The notes beneath the pieces were generated by a model. It did no database searches. It was not told the origin of the DNA and saw nothing but the letters and a program-made list of their open reading frames with translations. A program made the translations under genes and the position numbers. A stretch of 64,000 bases of DNA, taken from Methanosaeta sp. PtaB.Bin018 (GTDB lineage: Archaea > Halobacteriota > Methanosarcinia > Methanotrichales > Methanotrichaceae). Every line of letters begins with the position of its first letter. Positions within the stretch are counted from its first letter, which is position 1. The stretch lies in assembly GCA_002067755.1 (NCBI GenBank), contig MVQH01000101.1, positions 62,001-126,000 on the forward strand, written 5' to 3'. Of the stretch, positions 32,441 to 50,129 are shown one piece after another.

Positions 32441-35400
32441 TTAGCGGAACTCCAGTTTGGCATCCCTCGTGGCCTCGATCAAATAGGCCTTTCCAGGCTC
32501 AAGGGTCTCGTTCTCTCCCAGGTGCGTCCAGCCCTCATCCTCATACTTCCAGATAAAGGCAGAGACCAGGCCCTTCTGTACTGCTTCAGGATAAGTGTAT
32601 CTCTTATGCTCGGCATTTACTGTAATGTTATTCATATCCACTGTCCTGTTCACAGGCAGGCCGATCATATTCCATCCTGAATGCAGATCCAGGCGATAGG
32701 GCAGATCAACCGGCTTGCCAGAGATCATCATGGTGAAGTTCCCAGCGCTGTCAATTAGATACCCTTCGCCGGGCTTGAACTTCGTGACATTGACCATGCC
32801 CGCATCCTTTGTGCTGAAGGCCCATCCGCTCGCTGCACTGGAGAATATGCCCCTGTAAGGCTTATTTTTCAGGTACTTGCTTGCCGAAGGGTCCATTGGA
32901 TTCAGGTAGACTGAGATGGCATTCCAGCCTGCCGTCACATAAATCACCTGAACCTCGCCTGGGACGAGACTATATTCGATCTGGAAGCTCCTAGTCTCAC
33001 CGAGCCGCGGCCGAACGATTGGCCACATCACCTTTTTTTGGTCGCCGACGATCATCTCATCATGCCAAACAGCAAGGCCCATCTCTTTTACGACGACCTT
33101 GTCTGCATCTTTGGGCAGCGACACCTCGCCTATGATAGCGGGTGGAGCATTGAGATTCAGCTCTCCGGAGGAGCTGTCGGTCTCTATCCAGTAGATCCAG
33201 TCTGTCGCACTCTCATTCTTTGGCGTCACAGATGCCATAAGTGTGGTCTTGTTCTTTGCTGTGCCATTGGCAGCCGTGACCTTTGTGGTGTAAGGGAGAG
33301 CTGGTGATTTGGGAAGGTTGGGCCGGAAGCTGGGATCCCCTATGATCACGTTCATGTATGCAGTTTGATTGAGCATCTGCTGCACAGTCTCTTCCCAGTT
33401 AGGAAGTTCTTCGTCGTATTTGGATATGTCCTTTAGATTCTCTGCCCCCCTGAACTTAAGCTTGAAAAGGTTGTCTGCGTCAAGCTGGGCTTGGCCCACT
33501 GTGGCGTTCTCAAAAACAAGAGACTGGTAGAACTGCTTGAAGAAGTCATCAGACACGAAGATCCAGGATAAGGCAGACTCTCCAATATAATTTACAGCGC
33601 CAGCCCGAACGAATGCCAGGGCTATGGAGTCCTCTATATTCTTGGGTATGTACATCCTGGTCCCGCTGACGTTGAGGTAATAGCCCTTGAGGTTCACTGT
33701 AACGCAGGCCGATGATGTAGTGGTCTGAGGCGACAGGACAAGCTCCTTTACGTGCGCTCCAGTCAAAGTCGGGTCCATGCTCGACCACTCAGACAGCGAC
33801 CATGATTCTTCATTTCCATGATGATCGAAATGCACTATATTTTGACCGTTGTTCATCTGCGAGACAGCCTGCTGATATGTGGCCTCTTCGTATCGCAGAT
33901 CTTTGACAGCAAGCCCTGCTTCTTGTAGGTAGTCTCTGATGCTTGCGGCAATCGGAGCCTGGGGATATGAGAGGGGCGGCGAAGATATGACAAGGCCGTT
34001 GTTCTTCCAGGAACCACTTAGACGGTCGTATGCTAGGGTGCGGGCTAGGAGCTGAGATGCATCATAAACTGAGAGCCCCACGATCCTACCTACAGCAACA
34101 TTGCTGTAATTGTCGAATTCCTCGGGCAGTTGATAGTCCCTGTAGATCTCATACTCCATGACGCTTGTCAATTTCTGAACAAGGCCAGTGGAGATGAACG
34201 GCATTGACCCTGGATCGCCCACCACCATCAGGTATTTGGGCGAGAGCTCCAGATCATCGACCTTCTGGTTTAGTGATGCTTCCTCGTTTAAGGGATCTAT
34301 CTGTTGCGGGTCCTTTGCCACATCCAGCAGCAGGGCCCTGCGAGCTGAAGCTGCTTGAGACGCGACCATCGACAATCTTGGCACTTTGGTATGGCTGAAG
34401 GCAGTTATGTTCACAGGATCGGTGTTCGATCGCACATCGATGCTGTAATTCTCAGTTCTGTGGGTATATCCATCTCCAGCCTCTATATTGAACTTCCAGA
34501 CCCCTGGTGTCAGGAGCTGCACTCTCAGATTGTAAAGCTTGTCCGGCGCAATATCTGTGATCTTAACGCCGCCTTCCCTTCCATCAGGGCTGTAAAGGTT
34601 GAGGGCTGTGTAACTGGCATCTTTGTCGAGGTTCCATGATATGTTTGCTCTGCCAGAGTAGATCCATGTGGGATAGGTCAGATTGACGACTGGCCAGTCA
34701 TCAGTATTCTCGAGCGTGTGGTTATAGGAGAATCCCTCATATGCGGCGGTCGCGCCGGTATCCAGGCGCTGCTTCCAGCCAGAGTCCATAGGATACAAGA
34801 ACTCGACCTCAAGGTTCAAAGTGGCAGACTCTTCCGGCTTGAGCCTGACCAGATTCCAGCGCAGCAATGATCCATTGAGGAATGCGCTGTTGGCGTCCGT
34901 CGGCAATCCCGTATACGGATCAGTCACATTCACTTCACCCTTACTTGCTCTGGGCCATTTGATGAGCCTTCCCATTGGGAATATGTCCATCAAGCGTACG
35001 CTTGTCAGGTCCTTTGAGCCTGTGTTTGTAAGAGTTACATTGAGCCTGACTATCTCACCAAGCTCCTCTGCCGGAATTTGGCCAGGGCTGGCCTCAGTTC
35101 TAACTTGAAGATCCTCAACATAGGCACGTTCGACCACAGGATCTGGCGAGGGGGGGAGCAGTGACAGGTCATGCGAGTTGGTCATGACCACCATATCAGG
35201 ACTTTGGCCCCTATCCTTCATCTCCTTGATCAGGAGCTCGCTGTTGCCATTCAGAATGGTGATATTCATCTCCGTCAGGTTCTGTCTCACCTTCTCCGAG
35301 ACTGGACCTACTATCACAACCTCCTTCGCACTGAGGCGCCTCAGTGCCGCCGCTGTCTCCTCGGGGAGTTCGTCATTCACAAAGAGCAATGGCCAGTTGA

Positions 35401-36787
35401 GATAGGATGCAATTGGGGCTGCCTGCAAAGCTGAGCTGTAGTTCTCGCCAACTATCACTGTTCCAGGCGAGCTCTTCCAGTAGTGGCTGAGCTTCTCCGC
35501 CATATCATAACTGTTGTTGGCTTCCAGCTTTGTGTCGCTCTTCCAGGATACATTGCCAATTGCAAGCGACCTTCCGCCCAGTTGCTGAATCAGCCAGCTA
35601 GCCGCAGATGACGGCGGCTCCAGCTCCGACCACAGGGGCGTATAAACTACATCGTATTCAAAGGCCACTCCTTTGATTTTAGCCCTGGTGAGGTCCTCGA
35701 TGTACCTTACGGCACCATCCACATTTTGAGTGGAGAGGACGTAGCCCACATAATCATCGCTCAGCCTGACATAGGTCGGCTTATTGCTCATGCCTGCTGC
35801 AAGTTGTGCATCCTGGGCAGAGAGAGGTGCGATAATGGCGAAGTCGACCTTCTTGGCCATTTCTGCGTAATTGTATCCCTGATTGCGATCAAAGGGATTG
35901 TCTACAGCAACGCCCAGCTTCACAGGACCCAAATCGGATGTTATGTTTTTGGATTCGTCCACGATCTGCAAGATCTGTTCCTGCTTCCACCTGTTCCACC
36001 TGTCAAGGTTGTAGCTGTTGGCTTTGACCTTGGTGATGTCAATGCCTGTGTCCTTGTAGAACTTCTCTTTGCAGACGTCGCAAAAGCAGTAATTCTCATC
36101 CTGGAATCCGAATTTGTAAAGCACCACTCCATCGACTTTGTAGTCGTCAATCAAAGCCTCGATCTTGTTGTAGAGATGATCCCGCACCTCTGGATTGGCA
36201 GGACAAAAGTAACTCGCATTGCCTCCAGTCTCGGGATTGGCAACCTGCAACCAGCTCGGATCTATTCGTGACTCATCTGGAGCTGCGCCTTTAAGGCCGG
36301 CCTCTGCAAGGAGAGCAGCCTTTGCCTCTGGCACAGCCTCAATCTCATTCGTCTGGGGCTCTGAGATCAAAGGAAGCTCCAGAGATGCCGTAACATATGC
36401 ACTCATCCCGTTCTTATGAGCTGCCTCCACCAGTGCCTTGACCTGATCTCCTTCACCGTGAATCGTGATGGCTGTGACGTTGGCTGCTTTGAAGGTGCCC
36501 AGTATGGCTGAGGCTCCATATTTATCCAGATCGCTCTCTTCGACCCAGCCATTTCTATCGCCGGCGTTTACGTTCTTTGGCAGGATCAACAGCGTTTTCG
36601 TGATGGTCTTGTTGTCATCAGACCAAATGGCAAGTGGCGTGGCTGCAACTGATGCATGCCAGTCGTAAGCGCCTACCAGGATCAGATCCTCTACATCACC
36701 TTTCACACCTCGTTCCAGATCAGCGGCTGCAAGAAGCATTGCACTGGACAAAACCGCCATGATCAATACTGCTCTGAGCAGTTTCAA
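32441..36787 (-). CDS. very large surface protein: GH-like domain, cell-wall-binding-like repeats, gingipain-like domain
   Basis: This 1448-residue exported protein starts with a signal peptide. Residues about 60-400 resemble a glycoside-hydrolase-like barrel with a CxCxxC cluster (234-239) in DENYCFCDVCKEKF. Residues about 405-540 resemble cell-wall-binding repeat 2 (AIGNVSWKSDTKLEANNSYD, VVIVGPVSEKV). From about 850 to 1150 there is a peptidase C25-like fold: MVVGDPGSMPF, His990 in FDHHGNE and Cys1028 in SSACVTV make a plausible catalytic pair. The C-terminus carries GWNAISVYLNP and GWNMIGLPVN repeats. The gene overlaps the upstream surface-protein gene by four bases. Substrates are unknown; activity is inferred from motif spacing only. 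Confidence 0.72.
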   Translation of the reverse strand: MKLLRAVLIMAVLSSAMLLAAADLERGVKGDVEDLILVGAYDWHASVAATPLAIWSDDNKTITKTLLILPKNVNAGDRNGWVEESDLDKYGASAILGTFKAANVTAITIHGEGDQVKALVEAAHKNGMSAYVTASLELPLISEPQTNEIEAVPEAKAALLAEAGLKGAAPDESRIDPSWLQVANPETGGNASYFCPANPEVRDHLYNKIEALIDDYKVDGVVLYKFGFQDENYCFCDVCKEKFYKDTGIDITKVKANSYNLDRWNRWKQEQILQIVDESKNITSDLGPVKLGVAVDNPFDRNQGYNYAEMAKKVDFAIIAPLSAQDAQLAAGMSNKPTYVRLSDDYVGYVLSTQNVDGAVRYIEDLTRAKIKGVAFEYDVVYTPLWSELEPPSSAASWLIQQLGGRSLAIGNVSWKSDTKLEANNSYDMAEKLSHYWKSSPGTVIVGENYSSALQAAPIASYLNWPLLFVNDELPEETAAALRRLSAKEVVIVGPVSEKVRQNLTEMNITILNGNSELLIKEMKDRGQSPDMVVMTNSHDLSLLPPSPDPVVERAYVEDLQVRTEASPGQIPAEELGEIVRLNVTLTNTGSKDLTSVRLMDIFPMGRLIKWPRASKGEVNVTDPYTGLPTDANSAFLNGSLLRWNLVRLKPEESATLNLEVEFLYPMDSGWKQRLDTGATAAYEGFSYNHTLENTDDWPVVNLTYPTWIYSGRANISWNLDKDASYTALNLYSPDGREGGVKITDIAPDKLYNLRVQLLTPGVWKFNIEAGDGYTHRTENYSIDVRSNTDPVNITAFSHTKVPRLSMVASQAASARRALLLDVAKDPQQIDPLNEEASLNQKVDDLELSPKYLMVVGDPGSMPFISTGLVQKLTSVMEYEIYRDYQLPEEFDNYSNVAVGRIVGLSVYDASQLLARTLAYDRLSGSWKNNGLVISSPPLSYPQAPIAASIRDYLQEAGLAVKDLRYEEATYQQAVSQMNNGQNIVHFDHHGNEESWSLSEWSSMDPTLTGAHVKELVLSPQTTTSSACVTVNLKGYYLNVSGTRMYIPKNIEDSIALAFVRAGAVNYIGESALSWIFVSDDFFKQFYQSLVFENATVGQAQLDADNLFKLKFRGAENLKDISKYDEELPNWEETVQQMLNQTAYMNVIIGDPSFRPNLPKSPALPYTTKVTAANGTAKNKTTLMASVTPKNESATDWIYWIETDSSSGELNLNAPPAIIGEVSLPKDADKVVVKEMGLAVWHDEMIVGDQKKVMWPIVRPRLGETRSFQIEYSLVPGEVQVIYVTAGWNAISVYLNPMDPSASKYLKNKPYRGIFSSAASGWAFSTKDAGMVNVTKFKPGEGYLIDSAGNFTMMISGKPVDLPYRLDLHSGWNMIGLPVNRTVDMNNITVNAEHKRYTYPEAVQKGLVSAFIWKYEDEGWTHLGENETLEPGKAYLIEATRDAKLEFR

Positions 36788-38364
36788 GCTCTCACCTCCT
36801 CCATCAAGACGCCAGCATCTTGCAGCGCTCTGGCATTCGCCTCTAAAATGTCTCCCACTATCAAAGCCTTGGAGAGAGTAACATTGCGTTTGGTCATGAC
36901 TTTGATTGCGGATCTAGCAGCTTCTGTCACATTACCCTCGCATATTATCAAAGGCAGGCTACCGTTCTTGGCCACCTGGTAAGCCCTGAATATATCCACT
37001 GGTTTGGGACTCGATAATACGACCTCGGAGATTCCATCCTGCCACATCTCAGCTGTGAGTTGCCAGCATTCTTCAAACAGGCCATCTCCCTGAATGCGCT
37101 TGATCTCGACGCCATCAAGGACTTTTTCGGCATCCATAGAGACTATGGTGTGGTTGCCAAAGATCACAACTCTGGCAAAGTCCTGCAGCCATTCACGATC
37201 CTTATCGCTGAGCTTGCCTGGCGGAACTGTGATGATGGCCACCGATCTATTAGCTGGCGCGCACAAGGACGCCACTGTGCTGTACTGGAGATCTTCCCCC
37301 GTCAGGACCGCCACACCCTCGGGCTGCACCACTTTGACGGAGGTCATCTCCTGGGGCATGGGAATGCCATTGGAATCGATGAGCCTGAAAATAATCGGAT
37401 AATCCCCAGTTTGAGATGCCAGCATAGTGAAGTTGGCAACGCCAGGCTTTTCCGGATTGACCTCCACTACCTGGGCCTGAGGAATGACCATTAGCTCCGA
37501 CGGCGTTGCAATTCCGACCAGCACCTTCTCCTTGACATCGAGTATGACGCTAAATGAGCCTTTGTAGGTCTTATTGGCTACGATCCTATCTGGAACCTCG
37601 ATATCGACGCGGTAGCCCCTGACGGCCATGCCAAACTCAACGCTGGCATTGACTGTGTCGTTTCGGGAGCGGTTGCCCAAAGATGTCGCAGTTATCTGCA
37701 GCTCACCCCTCTTTCCCGGTTCAGTTGTTTGTATCTGTAACTTCATAAAATGGGTTGTGCCGGAGTCCAAAGATACATCGTATGGCAAGGAGACCTCCTC
37801 TTCACCGTCGAGCAGTGTCACGCTCCAGCCATCAGGCAACGGGGAGGAGTCGACATGTGCTACATCTCTGAACAACCCTAGGTTTTTTACAGCCAGCTCG
37901 AACTGTGCGATGTCTTCCGCTTTGGCGGCGAGCGACGCGGACTTGGCATCGTCGATGGTCATGCTGAGGCCGTAGCTCTCCTGACCCACGATGTTCAGAT
38001 TGAACTCAATTCTCACTGGCATGGTGGGAGGCGTGTTGTCCAGCAGATACATGAATCCAGTATAGGACCCTGGCTTTGTCTCCTGTGGGACTGCGAAGTA
38101 GACCTTTATCTCAGCATCATCCTGAGGCTTTAGCGGTTTTTGTTCAGGCATGCTCAAGATTATAAAGTCCTTAGCACTTCCGCTCACTTGAGTGCCTGTG
38201 ATTTTGAAAATGGGCGCATCGCCCACATTGGTCAACTTTAGCGTCCTCTCCTCCACCTCCCCTGGGTGGAGCACAACATCGAACTTCTCCTTATCTGGCG
38301 CCAGCTGGGCAGCGCCCAAGCTGATCAGCAGAATCAGAATGACTATCGGATATATTTGCCTCAT
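36784..38364 (-). CDS. secreted beta-sandwich protein with cell-wall-binding-like C-terminus
   Basis: The 526-residue protein has a signal peptide ending near LGAAQ. Several immunoglobulin-like beta-sandwich domains follow (LTNVGDAPIFKITGTQVSG, KNLGLFRDVAHVDSSPLPDG and others; NEW3-like). A C-terminal domain from about 385 to 526 has VVIFGNHTIVSMDAEKV and ALIVGDILEANARALQDAG, resembling the cell-wall-binding repeat seen in the next gene. Many N-x-S/T sites suggest glycosylation. It is translationally coupled to the 1448-residue protein by an ATGA overlap, and the two are likely partners on the cell surface or sheath. Confidence 0.65.
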   Translation of the reverse strand: MRQIYPIVILILLISLGAAQLAPDKEKFDVVLHPGEVEERTLKLTNVGDAPIFKITGTQVSGSAKDFIILSMPEQKPLKPQDDAEIKVYFAVPQETKPGSYTGFMYLLDNTPPTMPVRIEFNLNIVGQESYGLSMTIDDAKSASLAAKAEDIAQFELAVKNLGLFRDVAHVDSSPLPDGWSVTLLDGEEEVSLPYDVSLDSGTTHFMKLQIQTTEPGKRGELQITATSLGNRSRNDTVNASVEFGMAVRGYRVDIEVPDRIVANKTYKGSFSVILDVKEKVLVGIATPSELMVIPQAQVVEVNPEKPGVANFTMLASQTGDYPIIFRLIDSNGIPMPQEMTSVKVVQPEGVAVLTGEDLQYSTVASLCAPANRSVAIITVPPGKLSDKDREWLQDFARVVIFGNHTIVSMDAEKVLDGVEIKRIQGDGLFEECWQLTAEMWQDGISEVVLSSPKPVDIFRAYQVAKNGSLPLIICEGNVTEAARSAIKVMTKRNVTLSKALIVGDILEANARALQDAGVLMEEVRA

Positions 38365-39383: not shown

Positions 39384-40721
39384 ATGGCCCCCAGAGTTCT
39401 GTTCGCAACCATTTACAAAAAGGCCTCCGAGCCCTATGACTACATTGGAGCCAATACCAGATCATGGTTCAGATTCTACTGGCCACGCATTCAGTCCTTT
39501 GGCCTGCGCTTTCTCAAGCAGAATATCCCCGAGCTGGAGATCTTGGAGTTTCCTACCTGGGAAGAGTACTGCAAGAAGCTAGAAGAGGGCTGGGATGTGG
39601 TGGGTCTGTCGTTCTATCTCAACGAGACCCATGAGGCCCTGGAGATGGTCAAGGAGGCGCGCAAGGCACCCGTTGGCGAGATCTGGGCCGGAAACTATGG
39701 CGCCTTGACTCCAGAGATCCAGGAGAAGTTCGACAAGGTCTTCGTGGGTTATGCTGAGCAGCAGGTCGCGTCGTATTTCGGCCGACAAATCAAGGAGATC
39801 ATACATCCGCCTCTCATCGAGTATCTAAACTCGCCTTTTGGCATAAAGCTGAACGTTTACGGCATCATGTTCACCACGCGCGGCTGCCCAGTTGGCTGCA
39901 AATTCTGCCAGACCCCAGTGTTCTGCAATAAGCCCAACACAATTCCCCTCAAGAGCATCGAGCGACTGCTTGCCTACTACAAAGAGCATGGCATCAACGT
40001 TGTCCTGATAGAGGATGAGAACTTCGGTTGCAACCGCCGTCATGCGGATGCCGTTGTGGAGCTGCTGGACGAGTATGGCATGGTCTGGGGCTGCATGGCC
40101 AGAGCCGATTATCTGCGAAGAATGATCGACGAATGGGCGGAGAAGAGAAAGAGAAACGGAAAGCGTGTATCGGGCTTCGGAGGGGCAGCGATAGGCATCG
40201 AGAACCTGCACCAGGAACGATTGGACGACATAAAGAAGAAAGAGGGCACTGAGGACATCCTTGAGACGGTGCGCCTGCTGCAAAAGCACGGCCTTGGAAC
40301 AGTAGGCTATTACATGATCGGCTTTGAAGACGATACCAGGGAATCGCTTAAAATCGACATCCCCAAACTGGCTGCATTGAAGCTTGACATCACTCAGATC
40401 TGCGTATTAACACCACTGCCACAGACGCCTCTCTGGAATGAGATCGAGGAGAAGTACGGCATCTGGGACAGGGACTGGCATCATTATGACGGCAAGAACC
40501 TTGTTTGGAATCATCCAAGCATAAAACCGGATGAGATTCCGGGCATTCTGGATTGGTCGTTTAAGAAGGTTTATCCCTGGACCATGCCCCTGCGCACATC
40601 TGCACGGGTGTGGAGAGGAGCCTTTCGCTATGCAGGTTGGGCTGGAGTGAAGGAAGTGGCATCATACATAAGCAAGGCCAACAGGTTCGACTTCAGCCAG
40701 AGAAGGCTGCTGGAAGCTTAA
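39384..40721 (+). CDS. radical SAM enzyme with N-terminal B12-binding-like domain (first of pair)
   Basis: This 445-residue protein has an N-terminal Rossmann-like region (about 1-140), then the radical SAM cluster motif CPVGCKFC (Cys168, Cys172, Cys175) and the AIGIENLHQERLDD and TVGYYMIGFEDDTRES segments of the barrel. The N-domain lacks the DxHxxG cobalamin signature, so B12 binding is uncertain. The C-terminal LTPLPQTPLWNEIEEKYGI region resembles B12-type radical SAM enzymes that modify lipids or cofactors. It is immediately followed by a second radical SAM gene, with the start codon directly after this stop. Confidence 0.82.
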   Translation: MAPRVLFATIYKKASEPYDYIGANTRSWFRFYWPRIQSFGLRFLKQNIPELEILEFPTWEEYCKKLEEGWDVVGLSFYLNETHEALEMVKEARKAPVGEIWAGNYGALTPEIQEKFDKVFVGYAEQQVASYFGRQIKEIIHPPLIEYLNSPFGIKLNVYGIMFTTRGCPVGCKFCQTPVFCNKPNTIPLKSIERLLAYYKEHGINVVLIEDENFGCNRRHADAVVELLDEYGMVWGCMARADYLRRMIDEWAEKRKRNGKRVSGFGGAAIGIENLHQERLDDIKKKEGTEDILETVRLLQKHGLGTVGYYMIGFEDDTRESLKIDIPKLAALKLDITQICVLTPLPQTPLWNEIEEKYGIWDRDWHHYDGKNLVWNHPSIKPDEIPGILDWSFKKVYPWTMPLRTSARVWRGAFRYAGWAGVKEVASYISKANRFDFSQRRLLEA

Positions 40722-42176
40722 ATGAAGATCCTACTCTTGTCATCTCCAGTGGTCCAACAGGACTTCGACCGCATAGCCCGTCTGCCTAACCTCGGGCTGG
40801 CATCACTGGCAGCACACGTGAAAGACCTTTGCACAATTCACGTCGCCGACATCCACGGCATGAAGAACTACCGCGAATACGTGCGCAAGGCCGTCAACAG
40901 CTATGACCTTGTGGGCTTCACTGCCATGAGCTTCCAGTATCAGGAAGCGCTGAGGCTGGCCAGCATCGCAAAGGAGTCCGGTGCAAAGACGGTCTTTGGC
41001 GGATACCATCCAACACTTGCATGTGAGGAGATCGGCCAAAGCGAGGACGCAAGGCTCATCGACTACATCGTGCGAGGAGAGGGCGAGGCCTCCTTCAGGG
41101 AGCTGGTACAGTCCCTGCTTGCCGGAGTAGAGCCAAAGGGCGTCTTGGGCGTCTCATACCATGTGGGCGAGACGATGGTGCACAATAGGCCGCGACCGCT
41201 TCTCAGGGTCGAGGAGATCGAGATGCCCGACAGGGACGCGCGACTCATCACCAAGGGCTTCTACAGCTTTGATGTTCCCATCGACTCCGTTGAGACCAGC
41301 CGGGGCTGCACTCAAGGGTGCAAGTTTTGCAGCATCAACCTGATGTACGGCCGCAACTTCCGCAAGTTTCCCATCCAGCGCGTTATCGCCGATATCCAGG
41401 ACGCTGAGGAGCACGGCGCAGGTTCCATCTTCTTCCCAGACGACAACATCACCCTGGACGTGAGGCGGCTAGAGCAGCTCTGCCAGGCCATCATAGATGC
41501 TGGTCTGACGCATTTGCGCTACAAGACCCAGGCTTCGGCCTCTGGCATAGCATCCAGTAAGCGGCTGGTTGACAAGATGAGTGAGGCCGGATTCGATGGA
41601 GTCTTCCTGGGAGTCGAGAGCGTGAACAAGCGCAATCTTCAGTTCCTCGGCAAGGGCCGCATGTCCGATGATGCTGAGAGAGCTGTACGATATTTGCATG
41701 ATAATGATATCATCGTCTCCACTGGTCTCATCGGTGGAAATCCGGATGATGATGCAGAAGACATATGGGAGAATTTCCATCTAGCTCGGCGGCTGAAAGT
41801 TGATTTTCCGATTTTTTATATCAACACACCATACCCCAAGACTCAGATGCGCGCCGAGCTTGAGGAGATGGGGCTGATCACGAGGAATGATTTCACCAAG
41901 TACGATGGCCTGCATGCCAACTTGAGGACGAAGCATCTCAGCGACGAGGAGGTTCAGTACATCACCTGGGAGATGAATGCAAGATATTATGATTTCGAGT
42001 GGCTGCGCTACAACAAAGTAAAGAGGATTTACCCTAGGTGGTTTGCAAATGAGCTGAAGCGGCTGGCGCCATTCTATGCAAAACGCAAGCTTGATCTGGC
42101 CCTGGGAAGGCGCACCCGGCAGGACTTCTTCCTGGAGGACCTGAAAAGCGGCGAGCTGTGCAAGGGCGTAACATAA
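40722..42176 (+). CDS. radical SAM enzyme with B12-binding-like domain (second of pair)
   Basis: The 484-residue protein begins with a typical B12-binding-like domain (LPNLGLASLAAHVKD at 21-35, VFGGYHPTLACEE near 91), followed by the cluster motif CTQGCKFC (Cys196, Cys200, Cys203) and the FLGVESVNKRN segment. The DxHxxG cobalamin motif is replaced by DIHGMK. The gene abuts the first radical SAM gene without a gap, so they are co-expressed. They may act in one pathway such as membrane-lipid or cofactor modification; there is no direct evidence for either. Confidence 0.82.
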   Translation: MKILLLSSPVVQQDFDRIARLPNLGLASLAAHVKDLCTIHVADIHGMKNYREYVRKAVNSYDLVGFTAMSFQYQEALRLASIAKESGAKTVFGGYHPTLACEEIGQSEDARLIDYIVRGEGEASFRELVQSLLAGVEPKGVLGVSYHVGETMVHNRPRPLLRVEEIEMPDRDARLITKGFYSFDVPIDSVETSRGCTQGCKFCSINLMYGRNFRKFPIQRVIADIQDAEEHGAGSIFFPDDNITLDVRRLEQLCQAIIDAGLTHLRYKTQASASGIASSKRLVDKMSEAGFDGVFLGVESVNKRNLQFLGKGRMSDDAERAVRYLHDNDIIVSTGLIGGNPDDDAEDIWENFHLARRLKVDFPIFYINTPYPKTQMRAELEEMGLITRNDFTKYDGLHANLRTKHLSDEEVQYITWEMNARYYDFEWLRYNKVKRIYPRWFANELKRLAPFYAKRKLDLALGRRTRQDFFLEDLKSGELCKGVT

Positions 42177-42181
42177 GTGGA

Positions 42182-43843
42182 TTAAGATTGAAGGATCTCT
42201 CTTATTCTCCTCCTGCAGTCCTGGTCATTGAAAATCGCCCTTAGCTCCTCCTTCACCATCTTCCTCAGGCTGGCTCTATCTGAAGCAGCCATCTGCTGCT
42301 CTTCCTGACAATTTCCAAGAGCATTCATTCCATTCCCAAAGATCCTAAGAGGCCTCGTGAACACTGGCGCCTCGCCCTCCCTGAGCCGTTCCAGGCAGTC
42401 GTACAGCTCATCTAGCAGTCCATCTTTTCCATAGAAGTACTTCCTGAGCATCTCCTTCGTTATCTCCTTGTAGCTCTGGAAGCCCAAGATGTTCATCTCG
42501 TTATTCTCGATATAGTTTATCGACTCTGTGATTATATCGTGAAGCCTCCACTCCAAAGTGCCTGGACGCTTATGCTCTCCGATAGTGCCTCCATAGGGGT
42601 TGCGAAGCAGGATGAGCATATCCTCCGCCTTTCCACCACCCAATTTGCGGTAGACCATTATCTTGTTCTCCGACAGGCCCGTCCTCTCCTGTACGGCCTC
42701 CTTTATATCCTTGGTGCGGAAAAAACCGCGGGTGAAAACCAGGACTCGATCGGCCTTTGTAGGATCGCATGGGAACAACCGTCCGTCTTTGCCCGCAGGC
42801 AAAAGGCTCCCCTTGCCAAGGGCTCCCTCCACCAGCTCCAGCTCATCTCCCTCATGTGCTGCTTGAATGCAGTAGCACGGCACAAGAATGGGCGGAAGCA
42901 GACCTTCACTGCCAGCTCCCTCACGCCTCCTGGAGATCCCATTCGATCCATTGTTCTCCCCATTCACTTCCCAGATGACCCTCCTGATGCCTTGTGAGTC
43001 GTCCTGGAGCAGGTCCCCTGGATAATTCCTGAGATCGAGGAGCGGCTTGAGAGAGTTGTAGATGCAGACATCCATGCCGGTGTAATTGCCCCCAAACCTC
43101 TGCACCAGGGTCTGATTGTCTACCAGGATCAGAGCATCTATTCCTTCGCCCGAGGCCTTTGTGAGCAGGTCATACATTGCAATGACAGCGCCCAGATCTC
43201 TCTGGCCTTCTGTGGCCTTTCTCTTATCTGTTCCCTTCTCAGTCAGAATTCCCAGTACGAAGATTGGAAATATGGGCTCCTCAGATCGGACATAGCTCGT
43301 GATCGGGTTTATAAACCCAGTGCCAGTTCCACCACCTAAAGAGGCTATGAAGAGAATGCTATCGCACAGCTTGGATCTTGCGGAGCTTGTGGAAATAATC
43401 GTATGAGGCCTTATGCCTACCTGCCACATATACCCGGAAAGGGGATTATCGTTGCTCTTGAACTCCTCCAGGCAGACCTCCTTCAGCTTGGGGTCGAATT
43501 CGAATACCTCGAAGATCCCTTTCAGATACTCTGCCCTGCGGTCGAAGCCTGGCGCTTTGAGGTCGAGCCCGTAGGTATCACTCAAATATCTGCGGGTGTC
43601 AGAGCCTTCGCTCACATTTCCATGACAGATCAAAAAGGGGGGGTACTGTCCCTGTACCAGACTTCCGTAGTAGCTCTGGCGTTGTGTGTCTTGGGTGGCA
43701 GATTCCAGCCACAGTCCTTTGACTCCCCCGTAGGCCAGATGCCTTCCAAATTGAAGGCCCATTAGATTGATATCCTGGCTCTGTAAAAACTGCCTCAGTA
43801 TATTTCCACCTGCACCACCGATTCCAACGATACAAGGTCTCAT
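42182..43843 (-). CDS. divergent tubulin/FtsZ-superfamily GTPase
   Basis: A 553-residue protein opening MRPCIVGIGGAGGNILRQFL, where GIGGAGGN is the first nucleotide-binding loop of the FtsZ/tubulin superfamily. The glycine-rich tubulin signature follows as SLGGGTGTGF (169-177), and NYTGMD near 253-258 sits where FtsZ has the T7 loop NxDxxD, with the middle Asp replaced by Thr. A long, unfamiliar C-terminal half (about 270-553) follows. It is too diverged to be FtsZ1, FtsZ2 or CetZ and resembles the FtsZ-like families proposed to act in membrane remodelling. The open frame runs upstream to 44167, but ATG at 43843, overlapping the previous stop by four bases, is chosen. It is the last gene of a four-gene operon. 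Confidence 0.8.
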   Translation of the reverse strand: MRPCIVGIGGAGGNILRQFLQSQDINLMGLQFGRHLAYGGVKGLWLESATQDTQRQSYYGSLVQGQYPPFLICHGNVSEGSDTRRYLSDTYGLDLKAPGFDRRAEYLKGIFEVFEFDPKLKEVCLEEFKSNDNPLSGYMWQVGIRPHTIISTSSARSKLCDSILFIASLGGGTGTGFINPITSYVRSEEPIFPIFVLGILTEKGTDKRKATEGQRDLGAVIAMYDLLTKASGEGIDALILVDNQTLVQRFGGNYTGMDVCIYNSLKPLLDLRNYPGDLLQDDSQGIRRVIWEVNGENNGSNGISRRREGAGSEGLLPPILVPCYCIQAAHEGDELELVEGALGKGSLLPAGKDGRLFPCDPTKADRVLVFTRGFFRTKDIKEAVQERTGLSENKIMVYRKLGGGKAEDMLILLRNPYGGTIGEHKRPGTLEWRLHDIITESINYIENNEMNILGFQSYKEITKEMLRKYFYGKDGLLDELYDCLERLREGEAPVFTRPLRIFGNGMNALGNCQEEQQMAASDRASLRKMVKEELRAIFNDQDCRRRIREILQS

Positions 43844-44442
43844 TGCCGCCAAGCCTCCAGAAAACCAATTGATATTGGCAAGATCATGAGGACCGCTGCC
43901 GCCGCTAGCATCATGTATCCCAGATTCCAGAAGAACGGATTGCTGGTTGGGTAGATGATTCCAAGATGCATGGAACAGATGATAGACCCGAGAAGCAGGA
44001 CGGGAGTTGCAGCTGCAATTGCTTTGAGACGTTTGTGTATCAGATAATAACTGTAGACCTTTGGAACAAATATGGAGATCAGAGCTCCTGGGATCAGTGC
44101 TGCTACGCCAAAGATGGCAAACCCCCAATCCAATGAGGCCACGCGTGGGATCTTGAAGTAGTTCCACTCCGGAAAGATACTGGGAGTCAGCAAATAAAGA
44201 AAAGCCAGTGCCACGAACAATAGGCTCCAGGAGAGGATCATCATGATGTTGAAATTCGACCCCTGAGAGATGTGCATAGACCTCATGAGATCTCCGAGGT
44301 TGAAATCGCTCTCTTCAGTGCGCAATACCATGGACTCAATCATTTTCAGATACATCACGTGTAGGGTTCCACCTAAAAGCAAAATAGCTACCAGGCATAT
44401 GAGCATGTAAGCCTCAAATATATCATGCCCGAGCAGGTTCAT
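43840..44442 (-). CDS. polytopic membrane protein of the tubulin-like operon
   Basis: This 200-residue protein has about five transmembrane helices: LICLVAILLLGGTLHVMY, MMILSWSLLFVALAFLYL, FAIFGVAALIPGALISIF, TPVLLLGSIICSMHLGII and MMLAAAAVLMILPISIG. It belongs to no family I recognise. It overlaps the upstream exported protein and the downstream GTPase gene by four bases each, so it is probably made in fixed ratio with them. It could be the membrane anchor linking an external assembly to the cytoplasmic GTPase, which is an inference from order and topology. Confidence 0.7.
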   Translation of the reverse strand: MNLLGHDIFEAYMLICLVAILLLGGTLHVMYLKMIESMVLRTEESDFNLGDLMRSMHISQGSNFNIMMILSWSLLFVALAFLYLLTPSIFPEWNYFKIPRVASLDWGFAIFGVAALIPGALISIFVPKVYSYYLIHKRLKAIAAATPVLLLGSIICSMHLGIIYPTSNPFFWNLGYMMLAAAAVLMILPISIGFLEAWRQ

Positions 44443-45824
44443 CTGTAAAACCTCCTCTCCAGAAGAAGGCCGAGCACAAATGCCAGCAGCAAAATGGCAG
44501 CCACATTGCCCAAGCTCAAAGCGGATATGGTGTCGTATCTGACCAGTTTAGCACTAAGCGGAGCTTGTGCATCCTGCTCTATATGATCCCTCTGGTTCTG
44601 GTCATATTCTGAATACTCGAATTTATAGCGGAAGCTCTGGTTGGCATCGAGAACATCAAAGGGCTTGACGAGGAAGTAAACTGCCTTTGGATTGCCCGAT
44701 AAAACCACGTTCTGGCTCGCAATTGCCCTCCATGGGTGGGCCTTTGTGTCCAAATAGAGAGATACTTGCACCTGTGCATCCTCAGGCTCTTGGTTCTTCA
44801 TCTCCAGGCTGAAGTTGTAACTCTGCCACCAATATTGGTTTTGATCTTCAGGTGTAACCTTTGGCCTCCCCACCCATATGGCAGTGCTCTTCTTTAACTG
44901 AGGCCCCTTTTGAATGCCGGTTACGGAGACGTTTATGCCGTCTCCAAAGGAATAGTAATATGTGAAATTCTTGCCTGCATCATCCTTATTAAAAAACCCG
45001 TACTGGCTGGCCATGAATTGTACTCTCTGGCCGGAGGTGACCATTTGGGTTGCATTCGATCGTTCGCTTCCCTTCTCATCCAGTATATGCAAGGTGACAT
45101 TAACAGCATCGCCGTTTGCATCAGTGACGTTGGCAACATATGTGATGGGATCATTATACCTCGTGGGGTTCGGAGCCTCGATGGACAGATCAGATAGCAC
45201 AGGAGGGCTATTTGTTACATTAAGCGTGAGATTCTTAGAGGTCCAGGTGTATTGTCCGTCGGTCGCCTTCAACCTAAGAACTACAGTGCCGACCCTTTTT
45301 AGATCCCGGAATGATGTCAGCTCAGGAAAGGCTCTGTATGTGAAGTTTAATCCATCATTCGATTCCTGGTATTCATTTATCTGAATGATCTGTGGTATGG
45401 AATTCACCTGTGAGAAGGCATTCTCGCCTGGCAAGAGGGCCTCCAGGCGCAGGTAAATCGCTCTGCGTATCTCTATTGGATTGGAGTTTACAACATATGC
45501 TCGTACTACAAAATCCTGAGTTCTATTGAGCGTCGTGTTGCCCTTGAAATCCAGGCCCAGCCCTAACTTATCGCTGTATTCCTTAGTGGTAAACGGCTCA
45601 ATGTAGAGCAGTTTCTTCAACTGCTCGAACTTCTGAGGCTTTTGCTCCTTTCCTTCCTGCAAAGCCTTTAAGATCCTGTCCAAATCGGTCTGCCTGCTCC
45701 CACCACCCCCGCCACCTCCCTGCGATGGCGTAGGTGGGGGAATGTCCAGCATCTGGCATGCGACAGGCTGGTTCAATAGCAACAGAAGCATCAGGAGTGC
45801 AGCAAACCGAAGTGCTTGGCCCAT
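44439..45824 (-). CDS. exported protein with C-terminal membrane anchor, tubulin-like operon
   Basis: The 461-residue protein has a signal peptide (to about residue 24), a glycine run (GGGGGGG near 36-42), a charged helical stretch (about 45-75), then a large beta-rich extracellular part with two or three cadherin/Ig-like domains (NSPPVLSDLSIEAPNPTRYN, VTDANGDAVNVTLHILDEKG). A single C-terminal helix follows (VAAILLLAFVLGLLLERR). The short tail LERRFYR faces the cytoplasm if the helix exits normally. The start codon directly abuts the stop of the upstream gene. Confidence 0.68.
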   Translation of the reverse strand: MGQALRFAALLMLLLLLNQPVACQMLDIPPPTPSQGGGGGGGSRQTDLDRILKALQEGKEQKPQKFEQLKKLLYIEPFTTKEYSDKLGLGLDFKGNTTLNRTQDFVVRAYVVNSNPIEIRRAIYLRLEALLPGENAFSQVNSIPQIIQINEYQESNDGLNFTYRAFPELTSFRDLKRVGTVVLRLKATDGQYTWTSKNLTLNVTNSPPVLSDLSIEAPNPTRYNDPITYVANVTDANGDAVNVTLHILDEKGSERSNATQMVTSGQRVQFMASQYGFFNKDDAGKNFTYYYSFGDGINVSVTGIQKGPQLKKSTAIWVGRPKVTPEDQNQYWWQSYNFSLEMKNQEPEDAQVQVSLYLDTKAHPWRAIASQNVVLSGNPKAVYFLVKPFDVLDANQSFRYKFEYSEYDQNQRDHIEQDAQAPLSAKLVRYDTISALSLGNVAAILLLAFVLGLLLERRFYR

Positions 45825-47450
45825 TTAATTGCTCACCACATCGAATTTTATGGTCTTGTGCCAGGGTTGGTTCTTCCATATCAGCTCTTGCCATTCTGAG
45901 CAATTAGATCCATACGCTTGGATCTGATGAGATCTATTCCAGATCAATCCATCATCCGTGTAGATCAGCTCGATTTTCAGGCCAGGTCTCGATGATTTTA
46001 CCTTCACCTTATAATCAAAACGATCAGTATTGCCGATGCGGCTGTACAGCAGATCCCGAAAAGCCACATCGATCTTCGGACCGACGTATTTTCCCAGAAC
46101 AGTGTCTCCAAGCAAGAACCTATAGCTTGCATTGCCCAACTCATCGCTCACAGGATCTAAGCTTACATTTTTCCAAACGAGTGTGTCATTGTCTCCACTG
46201 TATGTCGCAGTTCCTCGATTTGTCCAGACCCAGCCGTTTGGCTGTGCTGTCTGCAGTTCGATATCACAACTTGGCAGCCTTGTTTCTACCTGGACAGAAT
46301 AGTTGTAACAGGTGAAGACTGAGCCATTTGCAGGGCTCACCGTCCAGTTTTTCAAGTTCACCGCAACCAGTGCTGGGCCTGAAGAATACTTACCGGTTTT
46401 TTCATAAGTGGTGGAGAAAGGATTATCAGAGCCTTGATAGTAAAAGCTGAAGTAATAGTTGGACATGCCGCTTGATTCTGCAGACGATGAGGGATTGACC
46501 TCTTTCCAGACCATAGTCTCCCACTGACCGACGTTACCGTAGCTTTGCCTTCCTGCAGAAATATATCGTTTGTTGCTCACATCCCAGACATTCAGCCCCA
46601 CATCGATGGCCTTCGCTGCTTTAACATCTATGCTGTAGTTGAAGGGCGTATCTGACAAGCCCCTATCCGGAGATACACTGCTATTTTTATACTCGACATC
46701 CACAGGCCATGAGGGCCCATCGAATATCATCTGTTTTCTGCCACAAATCCTGTAAGCAGCAGAGTCAAAATCGAAGCCCAGGCTTACGTTGGACCACTTG
46801 AGGGTCTGCCGGATTCCAGGCGTCGTATATGCTCGTGTGCCCACCAAAGTCCAGGGACCACTGCGTGACGGACCAACCTCCAAAGTTATGTTATCCTGGA
46901 CCGTGGATAGAACTGAAACCTCGTACTGATAACTATCCTCATTTGATCCCTTTCTTGGAGTAACCTTCTGGTCCCAAAACTCCTCGAAGACTTTTACAAG
47001 AGACGGCTTGCCGGTATGATCCTCGGCTTGTATAGGTTCCTCGAAGGGATTGAGAGAAGTGACTGCAACCCTGTACCACGCTTTATCCCATGTTTCCGTC
47101 CGGTTTTGGTCGCTCAGCCATTTTCCAAATTCACCGCTCAAGAATTCAGAGCTCTGAAAATTCACAGGAAATTGAACGGTGACCGATTCGCCGTTTGCGT
47201 TTATATCCTTTTTGATGGTTTTTGAGACAGATTGATCAGGTCCCGGCCCGACAGTAAGCTCAATGGTGTACAGCATCGATTTACTTGCACCAGAGATCTG
47301 AACATCGTATACTATTGTCTTGCCCACATCAAAAGGCTCAATCAAAGTGCCTGCTTGATTTGTGAATACAGATATCTCATAAGAATTGACAGGATTGACA
47401 AGCCACAGGAGTAGTATAGAAAAAATGATCATAGATCGTAGGCAGCCCAT
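45825..47450 (-). CDS. exported multi-domain beta-repeat protein, tubulin-like operon
   Basis: This 541-residue secreted protein begins with a signal peptide (to about residue 24) and contains about four or five related beta-sandwich repeats. Each opens with a pattern like F/Y-x-Y-x-V (YQYEVSVLS, FNYSIDVKA, YNYSVQVET, FDYKVKVKS) and ends with a Trp-Lys-Asn pattern (LKWSNVSLG, MVWKEVNPS, LVWKNVSLD, LIWKNQPW). No known family is evident. It is first in a four-gene operon ending with the tubulin-like GTPase. N-x-S/T sites suggest glycosylation; a structural surface role is inferred. Confidence 0.65.
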   Translation of the reverse strand: MGCLRSMIIFSILLLWLVNPVNSYEISVFTNQAGTLIEPFDVGKTIVYDVQISGASKSMLYTIELTVGPGPDQSVSKTIKKDINANGESVTVQFPVNFQSSEFLSGEFGKWLSDQNRTETWDKAWYRVAVTSLNPFEEPIQAEDHTGKPSLVKVFEEFWDQKVTPRKGSNEDSYQYEVSVLSTVQDNITLEVGPSRSGPWTLVGTRAYTTPGIRQTLKWSNVSLGFDFDSAAYRICGRKQMIFDGPSWPVDVEYKNSSVSPDRGLSDTPFNYSIDVKAAKAIDVGLNVWDVSNKRYISAGRQSYGNVGQWETMVWKEVNPSSSAESSGMSNYYFSFYYQGSDNPFSTTYEKTGKYSSGPALVAVNLKNWTVSPANGSVFTCYNYSVQVETRLPSCDIELQTAQPNGWVWTNRGTATYSGDNDTLVWKNVSLDPVSDELGNASYRFLLGDTVLGKYVGPKIDVAFRDLLYSRIGNTDRFDYKVKVKSSRPGLKIELIYTDDGLIWNRSHQIQAYGSNCSEWQELIWKNQPWHKTIKFDVVSN

Positions 47451-47584: not shown

Positions 47585-48730
47585 TCAAACTCCCAGCACC
47601 CTGCTCGCGGCCTCAACGCCCGCGCCACGTGATCGCAATTGCCCTTCCTTTGCCAACACCAGCTCAAGGGTCTGGATCGTCCTCAAAATATCGCCTGATG
47701 AGCAGGCGCCCATGGTGCCGATGCGAAAGATCTTGCCCTTGAGCTGCTCCTGGCCGCCGGACACAACCACGCCCTGCTTCTTCATGCCGCCACGCAGCTT
47801 GTCATCTGTGACCCCAGCAGGCATCTTCATGGCAGTGACCGTATTGGAGTAATGAGAATGCTCGTTCACCTGGGGGAAGAGCTCGATGTCCAGCGCTCTG
47901 GCCGCAGACCGAACTGCTTCAGCCTGACGGGCAGTTCTGGCCCTGCGAGAGGCGAAGCCCTCCTCTGACGCCATATGCAGCGCTTCTTGTAGAGCGAAGA
48001 ACAGAGGAACCGCTGGAGTGTAAGGCGTCTGCACAGGACTCTTCCTCGCGCTCTTCAGATGAGCCTTCAGATCTGCATAATAGCTGGCGCTCTTTGCCTC
48101 AAACCTCTCTTCTGCCTTTGGCGATACTGAGACCACTGCCAGGCCAGGAGGCACCGCCAGCGCCTTCTGAGAGCCGGTGATGGCGATATCGATGTTCCAA
48201 TCATCTGTCAGGAATTCATTCCCGCCTATTGAAGATATGCCGTCCACTATGAAGATCGCGTCATGCTTTTGGGCCAGCTTGCCAACCTCTTTTGCAGGGT
48301 TGGTGAGGCCGACGGAGGTCTCATTATGGACCATTGCCACAGCTTTAGCTCCCTGTTCAAGTGCAGCTTCAACCTTTTCCAGATCGAAGGGAGTGCCCCA
48401 CTCGAACTTCACTGGAAGGACCTTGCCGTACCTCTCTCCGATCTCAGTGAACCTCTCGCCGAATTTTCCGTTGGATACGGTCACGATGGTGTCCTTCCGA
48501 CCGATGATGCTGCCCACGGCTGCGTCCATACCCACCGTGCCGCTGCCGGTCATTATAACTACATCGTTCTGCGTCTCGAAAAACTGCTTGAGAAGTCCGA
48601 TGCAATCGCTGTAGATGGCTCCGAACTCGCTGCTTCTGTGGCTGATCATAGGCTTGGACATGGAGCGCAAAACGCGCGGTGCGACCTTGACAGGCCCTGG
48701 AATCATGAGCAACGTATCCTCTATATCCAT
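47585..48730 (-). CDS. alanine/serine-glyoxylate aminotransferase family protein
   Basis: The 381-residue PLP enzyme of the class V group starts MDIEDTLLMIPGPVKVAPRV, the classic N-terminus of the alanine-glyoxylate / phosphoserine-type subgroup. Asp163 (FIVDGISSIGG) and the Schiff-base Lys189 (ITGSQKALAVPPG) are intact. MIPGP and GSGTVGMDAAVGSI match serine-pyruvate/alanine-glyoxylate transaminases. In methanogens homologues are annotated as AGT; the true amino donor is not resolved. RNase HII and an exported protein lie upstream on the same strand, with gaps of tens of bases. Confidence 0.88.
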   Translation of the reverse strand: MDIEDTLLMIPGPVKVAPRVLRSMSKPMISHRSSEFGAIYSDCIGLLKQFFETQNDVVIMTGSGTVGMDAAVGSIIGRKDTIVTVSNGKFGERFTEIGERYGKVLPVKFEWGTPFDLEKVEAALEQGAKAVAMVHNETSVGLTNPAKEVGKLAQKHDAIFIVDGISSIGGNEFLTDDWNIDIAITGSQKALAVPPGLAVVSVSPKAEERFEAKSASYYADLKAHLKSARKSPVQTPYTPAVPLFFALQEALHMASEEGFASRRARTARQAEAVRSAARALDIELFPQVNEHSHYSNTVTAMKMPAGVTDDKLRGGMKKQGVVVSGGQEQLKGKIFRIGTMGACSSGDILRTIQTLELVLAKEGQLRSRGAGVEAASRVLGV

Positions 48731-48769: not shown

Positions 48770-49402
48770 CTATATAAAACTAGCTTTTATACGTTGTGCT
48801 GTGGTCCAGCTATGCCTGGCACATGGTGGAAGCTCCCGATTTTCTCTAACCCAGCAGCTCAAAAAGTCGAGTGTATCCTTATCGGTGGGGTAACCGCTTC
48901 CGATCTTGCATCCCAGCTCCTCTTCCAGTTCCCGCAAAGATGCATCTCGCCTCACCTTGGCAAGGATGGATGCGGCTGAGACTACCAGGTGGCGCTCGTC
49001 TGCCTTATGCTCGGCGATCAGCTCCATGCCGGTTTTGCTGGCGTCTCTCACCCGCCCTGCGAACCTGGCAGCATCCACATCTGCGGCGTCGAGAACAGCC
49101 CTGTCGGCATGCAGCCTCTGCACCACCTGAGAGAAGCTCCTTACCATGATCTCGTTCATGGTCATCGCCAACCGAAGCTCATCGATGACACGCGGCGAAA
49201 CTTCCAGGATGTACTGGTCGGCAGAGATGCTCGAGATCTTTCTGGCCAGCACCTCGCGGGCCTTTGGGCGGAGACGCTTGGAGTCCTTTACGCCCATAGC
49301 AGCGAGGTCAAAGAGCCTATCCTCCTCGATGACCAGACCTGCGATGAACATCGATCCCACAACTGGGCCTTTTCCTGCCTCATCCACGCCCAGCAGAAGC
49401 AT
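48770..49402 (-). CDS. rnhB: ribonuclease HII
   Basis: The 210-residue enzyme removes RNA from RNA/DNA hybrids, including misincorporated ribonucleotides. The DEAGKG motif (Asp7-Glu8 when started at MLLLGVDEAGKG) and the conserved Asp residues in VLDAADVD provide the metal site; the GSGYPTDKDTLDFL segment is typical. The open frame extends to 49423, but ATG at 49402 gives the family's normal N-terminus. Archaeal RNase HII is usually a single housekeeping gene, and the one here looks intact. Confidence 0.93.
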   Translation of the reverse strand: MLLLGVDEAGKGPVVGSMFIAGLVIEEDRLFDLAAMGVKDSKRLRPKAREVLARKISSISADQYILEVSPRVIDELRLAMTMNEIMVRSFSQVVQRLHADRAVLDAADVDAARFAGRVRDASKTGMELIAEHKADERHLVVSAASILAKVRRDASLRELEEELGCKIGSGYPTDKDTLDFLSCWVRENRELPPCARHSWTTAQRIKASFI

Positions 49403-49472
49403 GACGACGAAATTGAATGCCAAGATATTTTAAGTGATCGAAAAAAAGAAGGACTAATAAGAAGTACCTGCA

Positions 49473-50129
49473 TCAGGGTGTCGGAGTCAGGCGAATGTCG
49501 CCCGTCGAAACAATGTGGCTGCCGCCTATGTGAAGGTATAGGAAATCACTGCAGACGTTGTATCCTGCATTTCCATCAATTTCGACATACTGAATTGAGA
49601 CAAATGGGAAGGCAGTCCATGGTCTTCCATTTTCGGGATTGAAGTTTCTAATTTTTGTTCCTGCTGATGGGACACTCAGTCGATCATCGCCAGTCAATAG
49701 CAACCCAAAACCACTATCTGTCGTAAAATACACTCTATCGAAACGGTCGTAGGTGCCTATCACACCGGATATATCATTGAATACAAAGTCAGGAGCATTA
49801 AAGGCAATCAGGGGCTGATTGTAGTCTTGATCTCCCATCTCCACTTTCGTGCCTGGTGCCGCACCTGGATTGCCATTGCCCCAGGACAGTCGAACCCTTG
49901 CATCGCTGTTTGCAAATTTTCGCAGATAGATCGTGTCTCCCACATCATAACCATTCGCACCTGAGTCCACGTATCCAATATCATTGGGGTTTGCTGTTAG
50001 AAATACTAGTGGATACCCCCAATCGTAGTTATTATGGGCAACTTTGCTTCCAAATGCATAACCCAGCGCGGAAGTGCTCAGCATTAAAATCAAACAGAGC
50101 ATTAACGAGATCTTAAATATTGTTCGCAT
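49473..50129 (-). CDS. hypothetical secreted protein
   Basis: This 218-residue protein has a signal peptide (MRTIFKISLMLCLILMLSTS, cleavage near ALGYA) and then a beta-rich mature part with aromatic and glycine-rich phrases (NYDWGYPLVF, GYDVGDTIYLRK, GNPGAAPGTKVEMGDQDY) and an ending HIVSTGDIRLTPTP. It is not matched to a known family. Methanothrix cells wear an amyloid-like protein sheath, so a surface or sheath-associated role is one possibility; it is not shown by the sequence. Confidence 0.65.
   Translation of the reverse strand: MRTIFKISLMLCLILMLSTSALGYAFGSKVAHNNYDWGYPLVFLTANPNDIGYVDSGANGYDVGDTIYLRKFANSDARVRLSWGNGNPGAAPGTKVEMGDQDYNQPLIAFNAPDFVFNDISGVIGTYDRFDRVYFTTDSGFGLLLTGDDRLSVPSAGTKIRNFNPENGRPWTAFPFVSIQYVEIDGNAGYNVCSDFLYLHIGGSHIVSTGDIRLTPTP

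Follow-up and report, generated by a model that had tools for sequence, protein, structure and literature searches.

A conserved four-gene operon of Methanotrichaceae encodes a divergent tubulin-superfamily protein together with membrane and surface proteins

The four-gene operon and its conservation

Analysis of a 64,000-nucleotide stretch of contig MVQH01000101.1 from Methanosaeta sp. PtaB.Bin018 (the window) identified, at positions 42182-47450 of the minus strand, an operon of four genes, the last of which encodes a divergent member of the tubulin/FtsZ superfamily. The four open reading frames (ORFs) lie on the same strand without gaps, in the order gene 1-2-3-4 running from 47450 to 42182: the end of gene 1 at 45825 abuts the start of gene 2 at 45824, and four-base overlaps join gene 2 to gene 3 (44439-44442) and gene 3 to gene 4 (43840-43843, ATGA). 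Both the cluster and the abutting or four-base overlapping arrangement of its genes had been described in an earlier note on this DNA, and both were found as described. The ATG at 43843, from which all family members align, and not the mechanically called GTG at 44167, is the true start of gene 4; the product is 553 amino acids (aa) long and begins MRPCIVGIGGAGGN.

Gene 1 (P0004; 45825-47450, minus strand) was annotated from its ORF, its signal-like N-terminus and its retention of the first operon position as encoding a secreted protein of 541 aa. The protein has an N-terminal hydrophobic signal, no second transmembrane (TM) segment and, as judged by eye, apparent immunoglobulin (Ig)-like repeats; its homologues differ greatly in size from one species to another (about 537-1460 aa). 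A Pfam scan of the window copy and the homologues returned no domain, barring one marginal member.

Gene 2 (P0003; 44439-45824, minus strand) encodes an exported single-pass membrane protein of 461 aa, as indicated by the ORF, the alignment of homologues, the TM segment and the charge of the tail. A signal is followed by a Gly-rich linker, an Ig-like ectodomain with weak Pfam matches to Cadherin_4, PKD and Big_9, a C-terminal TM segment and a short basic cytoplasmic tail (ERRFYR in the window copy). The earlier note had called the products of genes 1 and 2 beta-rich exported proteins, one of them with a membrane tail: the N-terminal signals of both and the C-terminal TM segment of gene 2 were recovered, and a beta-rich composition is suggested by the weak Pfam matches, for gene 2 only. 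A longer Lys/Arg-rich cytoplasmic tail of 41-54 aa, often ending in an LKMLRRG-like sequence, is present in 10 of the 24 gene 2 homologues (L047, L050, L051, L052, L053, L054, L056, L057, L062 and L065). In these homologues, the basic tail may serve to dock the tubulin-like protein.

The product of gene 3 (P0002; 43840-44442, minus strand) is a membrane protein of 200 aa, delimited by its ORF and by the alignment of homologues. The five membrane helices noted previously were corroborated by hydropathy, with five hydrophobic stretches in almost every homologue, and by a confident AlphaFold model with five helices (predicted local distance difference test score, pLDDT, 90.4; predicted TM-score, pTM, 0.86). 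The alignment revealed a conserved QGSNF-like motif ahead of helix 2. A fold search against the PDB gave no match with E<0.001.

The nearest named relatives of the window genome are Methanothrix metagenome-assembled genomes. Searches of 61 near relatives detected gene 4 in 32, all of them Methanotrichaceae (family f1), and gene 2, which co-occurs with it, in 31; among the Methanotrichaceae genomes at least 90% complete, 32 of 33 carry gene 4. The order 1-2-3-4 was the same on every sufficiently long contig examined; in some neighbourhood rows the gene 3 label was missing, as an over-extended gene 4 ORF masked a gene 3 that is present there. The conserved neighbourhood that the earlier note had named as a check on its proposal thus exists. 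Purifying selection acts on each of the four genes (ratio of nonsynonymous to synonymous substitution rates, dN/dS, of 0.09-0.23 where dS was unsaturated), and therefore the cluster is not due to chance. The four gene products very probably act together. The main text accompanying the M. thermoacetophila expression data makes no mention of the four genes.

Upstream from the operon lie genes for an aminotransferase (47585-48730) and RNase HII (48770-49423), both of which are also its neighbours in many relatives. In G004, the sole operon-less genome among the 33, these searches found genes 2 and 4 nowhere in the genome, and unrelated genes follow at the aminotransferase locus. We take G004 to be M. 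soehngenii/concilii GP6, G130 to be M. thermoacetophila PT and G252 to be M. harundinacea 6Ac.

In a sample of 394 genomes of the phylum, strong gene 4 matches were restricted to Methanotrichaceae, with the exception of a single genome from another class (G092). In G092 the whole operon (L104, about 49-57% identity) lies on a 14.8-kb contig (C75) whose dinucleotide signature, in a small sample, is nearer to a Methanothrix locus than to the remaining DNA of G092, and this is the only one of 11 genomes of its class to have gene 4. The contig was probably mis-binned or horizontally transferred. Weak matches in family f3 (E about 1e-9) were discarded, falling on ORFs with CetZ-type SGGTGSS loops.

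Departures from a single intact gene 4 were also observed. Three genomes have two copies (G027, on C210 and C102; G425, on C56 and C51; G426, on C79 and C72), an extra partial copy of 184 aa lies directly downstream at L066/L033, and an in-frame TAG splits the gene in G026 (C38).

Gene 4 encodes a divergent tubulin-superfamily protein

The predicted cytoplasmic product of gene 4 (P0001; 42182-43843, minus strand) was assigned to the superfamily by profile matches to Pfam and the PDB and by its fold. PF00091 was matched by all 24 family members, the best with an E-value of 4.3e-9; the window copy (E=9e-7, 29.8 bits) falls slightly below the curated cut-off of 33, which several family members with their neighbours in frame pass. 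Searched against the PDB, the family profile retrieved, among the matches listed, tubulin-superfamily chains only: first a CetZ (3zid, E=3e-5), which we take to be that of a Methanosaeta, in line with PMC9856176, and then Haloferax CetZ2, FtsZ and tubulins.

The AlphaFold model of gene 4 (pLDDT 77, pTM 0.81) gave the same picture. Tubulin was the best fold in a Foldseek search, with tubulins and CetZ among the matches listed (probability 1.00, E about 1e-13), at TM-scores of only about 0.6-0.7 by target. The fold extends beyond the GTPase domain, as in FtsZ and CetZ, and the family has large, variable inserts in the region between T1 and T4. In a tree with FtsZ1, FtsZ2, CetZ and FtsZl1, the gene 4 family formed a clade of its own with a support of 99 and a long stem; its position beside FtsZl1 is a long-branch join that is not to be trusted, and the deep branching order is made uncertain by the long branches.

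Membership of gene 4 in the tubulin superfamily can be regarded as all but secure, and the protein represents a new family within it, apart from FtsZ1, FtsZ2, CetZ and FtsZl1/Tubulin_2. Sequence profile, fold and tree agree in upholding the proposal that the protein is tubulin/FtsZ-like, divergent and distinct from FtsZ1, FtsZ2 and CetZ. The profile search and structure prediction suggested with that proposal pointed to PF00091 and a tubulin fold; another P-loop fold was excluded by both kinds of search. A viral origin was rejected as well, the PhuZ-like fold matches being remote only.

The two motifs on which the protein was first singled out lie at the expected loops. GIGGAGGN forms the T1 loop (residues 7-14, 43802-43825, minus strand), with G7, G9, G10 and G12 invariant in 24 homologues, and GGGTGTGF forms the T4 tubulin-signature loop (residues 170-177, 43313-43336, minus strand), with G170 to G176 invariant; barring one G13C, the glycines and threonines of both motifs never vary. 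The DN of the T6 position is invariant in the family as well.

In FtsZ, the acidic residues of the NxDxxD motif, in the loop after helix H7, complete the active site of the neighbouring subunit. Alignment with FtsZ and column counts placed this catalytic, or synergy, loop (T7) at residues 270-282 of gene 4 (42998-43036, minus strand), between model helices 254-269 and 283-291, and NxDxxD was found at this position in none of the 24 members. The position has instead an invariant R272 and P275, and an acidic residue at 277 in 18 of the 24. From the sequence of the altered loop, gene 4 would be expected to hydrolyse GTP unusually or slowly.

The loss of the motif in all 24 members, together with the large variable T1-T4 inserts, could also be explained if gene 4 were a non-polymerising or hydrolysis-dead GTP switch that has lost filament dynamics and serves a membrane complex, such as one for protein export or signalling, as its regulatory subunit. 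We consider this quite unlikely: both GTP loops are almost wholly conserved, the fold runs on past the GTPase domain as in FtsZ and CetZ, and the invariant R..P at the T7 site suggests that a function was replaced and not merely lost.

FtsZ2, the sheath and possible roles of the operon

Methanotrichaceae, whose cells grow in chains inside a sheath, are major producers of methane from acetate. Every one of the 33 genomes with a completeness of at least 90% has FtsZ1 and CetZ. FtsZ2 had a normal score in 13 of these, was weak or decayed in 8 and was absent from 12, so that loss or decay affects 20 of 33 (the value for G006 in the gene 4 count was taken from a separate near-relative search). The low-scoring copies nest within FtsZ2 in the tree; five of seven decayed copies have lost the T4 GGGTG motif, and stop codons interrupt a further copy (G032). 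Loss or decay was seen in G012, G033, G032, G424-G428 and others (loci L190-L203). On the FtsZ1 tree, the distribution of intact and lost FtsZ2 needs seven changes, of which the well-supported branches force only two. FtsZ2 was found in all five genomes checked from outside the family, and FtsZ2-scoring matches occur elsewhere in the class among the matches listed.

The operon-less genome G004 keeps FtsZ2, and the window's own genome, which lies near G004 in the FtsZ1 tree, lacks FtsZ2 and has the operon, a pattern that suggests overlapping roles for the operon and FtsZ2. In its strongest form, the operon would represent a third class of division tubulin, in which a surface-coupled tubulin with a re-engineered T7 loop takes over the work of FtsZ2, FtsZ2 decays independently in several lineages and the filament templates an extracellular septal or plug structure; we regard this as unlikely.

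A somewhat less doubtful alternative, which we nevertheless hold to be improbable, is that gene 4 organises cell shape, polarity or adhesion, as a CetZ-like scaffold that positions Ig-like surface adhesins and has no role in division. CetZ is the closest superfamily relative by full-length profile, and the secreted partner ranges from 537 to 1460 aa across species, as is seen with adhesins and surface filaments. However, CetZ itself is already encoded in all 33 genomes, so that this would be a second system of the kind, and the decay of FtsZ2 would be left unexplained.

The earlier note had proposed an envelope- or sheath-building machine. Filaments of gene 4 could act by way of the membrane and surface proteins to guide sheath hoops during export and insertion: Methanotrichaceae form sheaths and have the operon almost universally, no proteins could be linked to sheath assembly or to the plugs and SH genes were found to have no conserved neighbours (PMC11576556), and a small secreted protein of SH-like size is encoded 2 kb away (49473-50129). 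Yet G004 lacks genes 2 and 4 anywhere in its genome and lacks the operon at the syntenic site, and the sheath of GP6 serves as a published reference (PMC6242892, which cites a detailed comparison of it by Patel et al. 1986). Other sampled Halobacteriota, barring the one odd contig, have no strong homologue, while SH proteins occur there, sheath proteins having been reported in Methanospirillum, Methanolinea and ANME-1 (PMC11576556). A component of archaeal sheath assembly would be present in all sheathed strains, and the operon is missing in G004, which is GP6 if that identity holds. If so, the operon is neither required for the sheath nor common to sheathed archaea; the claim of a sheath-building machine is weakened accordingly and a direct role in building the sheath appears very doubtful. 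The operon may act on an aspect specific to Methanotrichaceae: plugs, septa or the organisation of the filament.

The 218-aa secreted protein at 49473-50129 (P0006, minus strand), of the size reported for SH proteins, has two tandem relatives at G000:C22:22601-23859 and is a candidate SH-like protein.

The broader part of the original proposal, that an envelope machine connects a filament in the cytoplasm with surface proteins, is plausible. Our tentative preference is for a membrane-coupled tubulin-like system specific to Methanotrichaceae, serving as an envelope-coupled scaffold for septation within the filament and partly relieving FtsZ2. Gene 4 would bind GTP and form filaments or patches on the inner face of the membrane, which, given the altered T7 loop, would hydrolyse slowly and be long-lived. 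Anchorage would be provided by the five-helix protein together with the basic tail of gene 2 on the cytoplasmic side, and the gene 2 ectodomain together with the secreted repeat protein would carry the pattern across the membrane to the S-layer or septal surface. Such a system would most likely organise surface assembly at the division septum or at the ends of cells within the filament, and its function would overlap in part with that of FtsZ2.

Several observations weigh against this septal scaffold. The loss of the T7 acids could mean that gene 4 does not polymerise as FtsZ does. G004 (GP6, if that identity holds) grows without the operon. Twelve of the 13 genomes with a normal FtsZ2 also carry the operon, and therefore FtsZ2 loss is not an obligatory consequence of having it; with a single operon-less genome, the reciprocal pattern of operon and FtsZ2 has no statistical meaning. 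Life within a sheath could instead have led to the loss of FtsZ2.

In Methanotrichaceae, no proteins are known to assemble the sheath, plugs or septa (PMC11576556), and the conserved tubulin-to-surface operon is a concrete candidate for the shaping or partitioning of these cells. The tubulin superfamily gains a family whose catalytic loop is altered, and a natural comparison is offered by genomes that differ in the presence of the operon and of FtsZ2.

Elsewhere in the window, type III-B-like CRISPR effector genes lie at 18581-21717 on the minus strand (Cas10/Cmr2, 18581-20542; RAMP, 20539-21717). The region 32441-38364 of the same strand encodes a protein of 1448 aa that contains a C25 (gingipain-like) peptidase domain and whose gene has a four-base overlap with that of a 526-aa exported protein; the pair is kept in close relatives. 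Convergent to the operon, at 39384-42176 on the plus strand, are the genes for two radical SAM proteins side by side, of which the second has a B12-binding domain.

Comparison with known tubulin relatives

Gene 4 shares with FtsZ1 and FtsZ2 the superfamily and the GGGTGTG T4 loop, but its T1-T4 region is about 70 aa longer and it falls in a separate clade. Identity with FtsZ was rejected on a score of 19.2 bits against the NCBIfam ftsZ cut-off of 295 and on the absence of the NxDxxD T7 motif. In two genomes, a tubulin-superfamily protein with a GGGTGS loop (L145 in G092, L147 in G074) grouped in the tree with neither FtsZ1, FtsZ2 nor CetZ.

FtsZl1/Tubulin_2 (PF13809), a proposed membrane-remodelling system (PMC2875224), resembles gene 4 in being divergent and encoded with membrane or exported proteins, and in having T1-T4 inserts and an unrecognisable T7. 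Gene 4 lacks the coiled-coil architecture of roughly 1000 aa, and its partners lack vWA, kinase and P-loop GTPase domains. It scored 12.1 bits against the PF13809 cut-off of 27, the overlap with that profile was limited to 57 columns around T4, and the 553-aa model has no long coiled coil of the kind that FtsZl1 combines with a helical C-terminal domain. True FtsZl1 was not found in Methanotrichaceae; it was found in family f3. FtsZl2 is described as conserving all loops including T7, as confined to Proteobacteria and as having no associated genes (PMC2875224); by this description gene 4, archaeal, without the T7 motif and in an operon, is set apart from it.

Halo.Tub is likewise a non-canonical archaeal tubulin relative from the same phylum, described as CetZ-like quasi-tandem paralogues of Halobacterota around which coiled-coil proteins are frequent (PMC9871819). 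Unlike these, to go by that description, gene 4 usually occurs once per genome and rarely twice, in an operon of four genes in fixed order. The g22 genomes of family f5 (G369, G396, G431, G442, G443, G445, G446, G448-G450) have 7-12 PF00091 matches each, which are perhaps the tandem Halo.Tub paralogues of PMC9871819.

CetZ (PDB 3zid, 4b45) belongs to the same superfamily and gave the best profile matches: its alignment with the family profile was the closest and longest, at 185 columns, FtsZ being weaker. The GTPase and C-terminal domains both align, and a DNQ.L motif at T6/H7 is common to the two. Gene 4 was not accepted as a CetZ, the two forming separate clades, each with a support of 99. 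The proteins also differ in length (553 aa versus about 370-380) and in the T4 loop (GGGTGTG versus SGGTGSS) and, unlike CetZ, gene 4 shares a conserved operon with genes for membrane and surface proteins, in genomes that carry a CetZ of their own besides.

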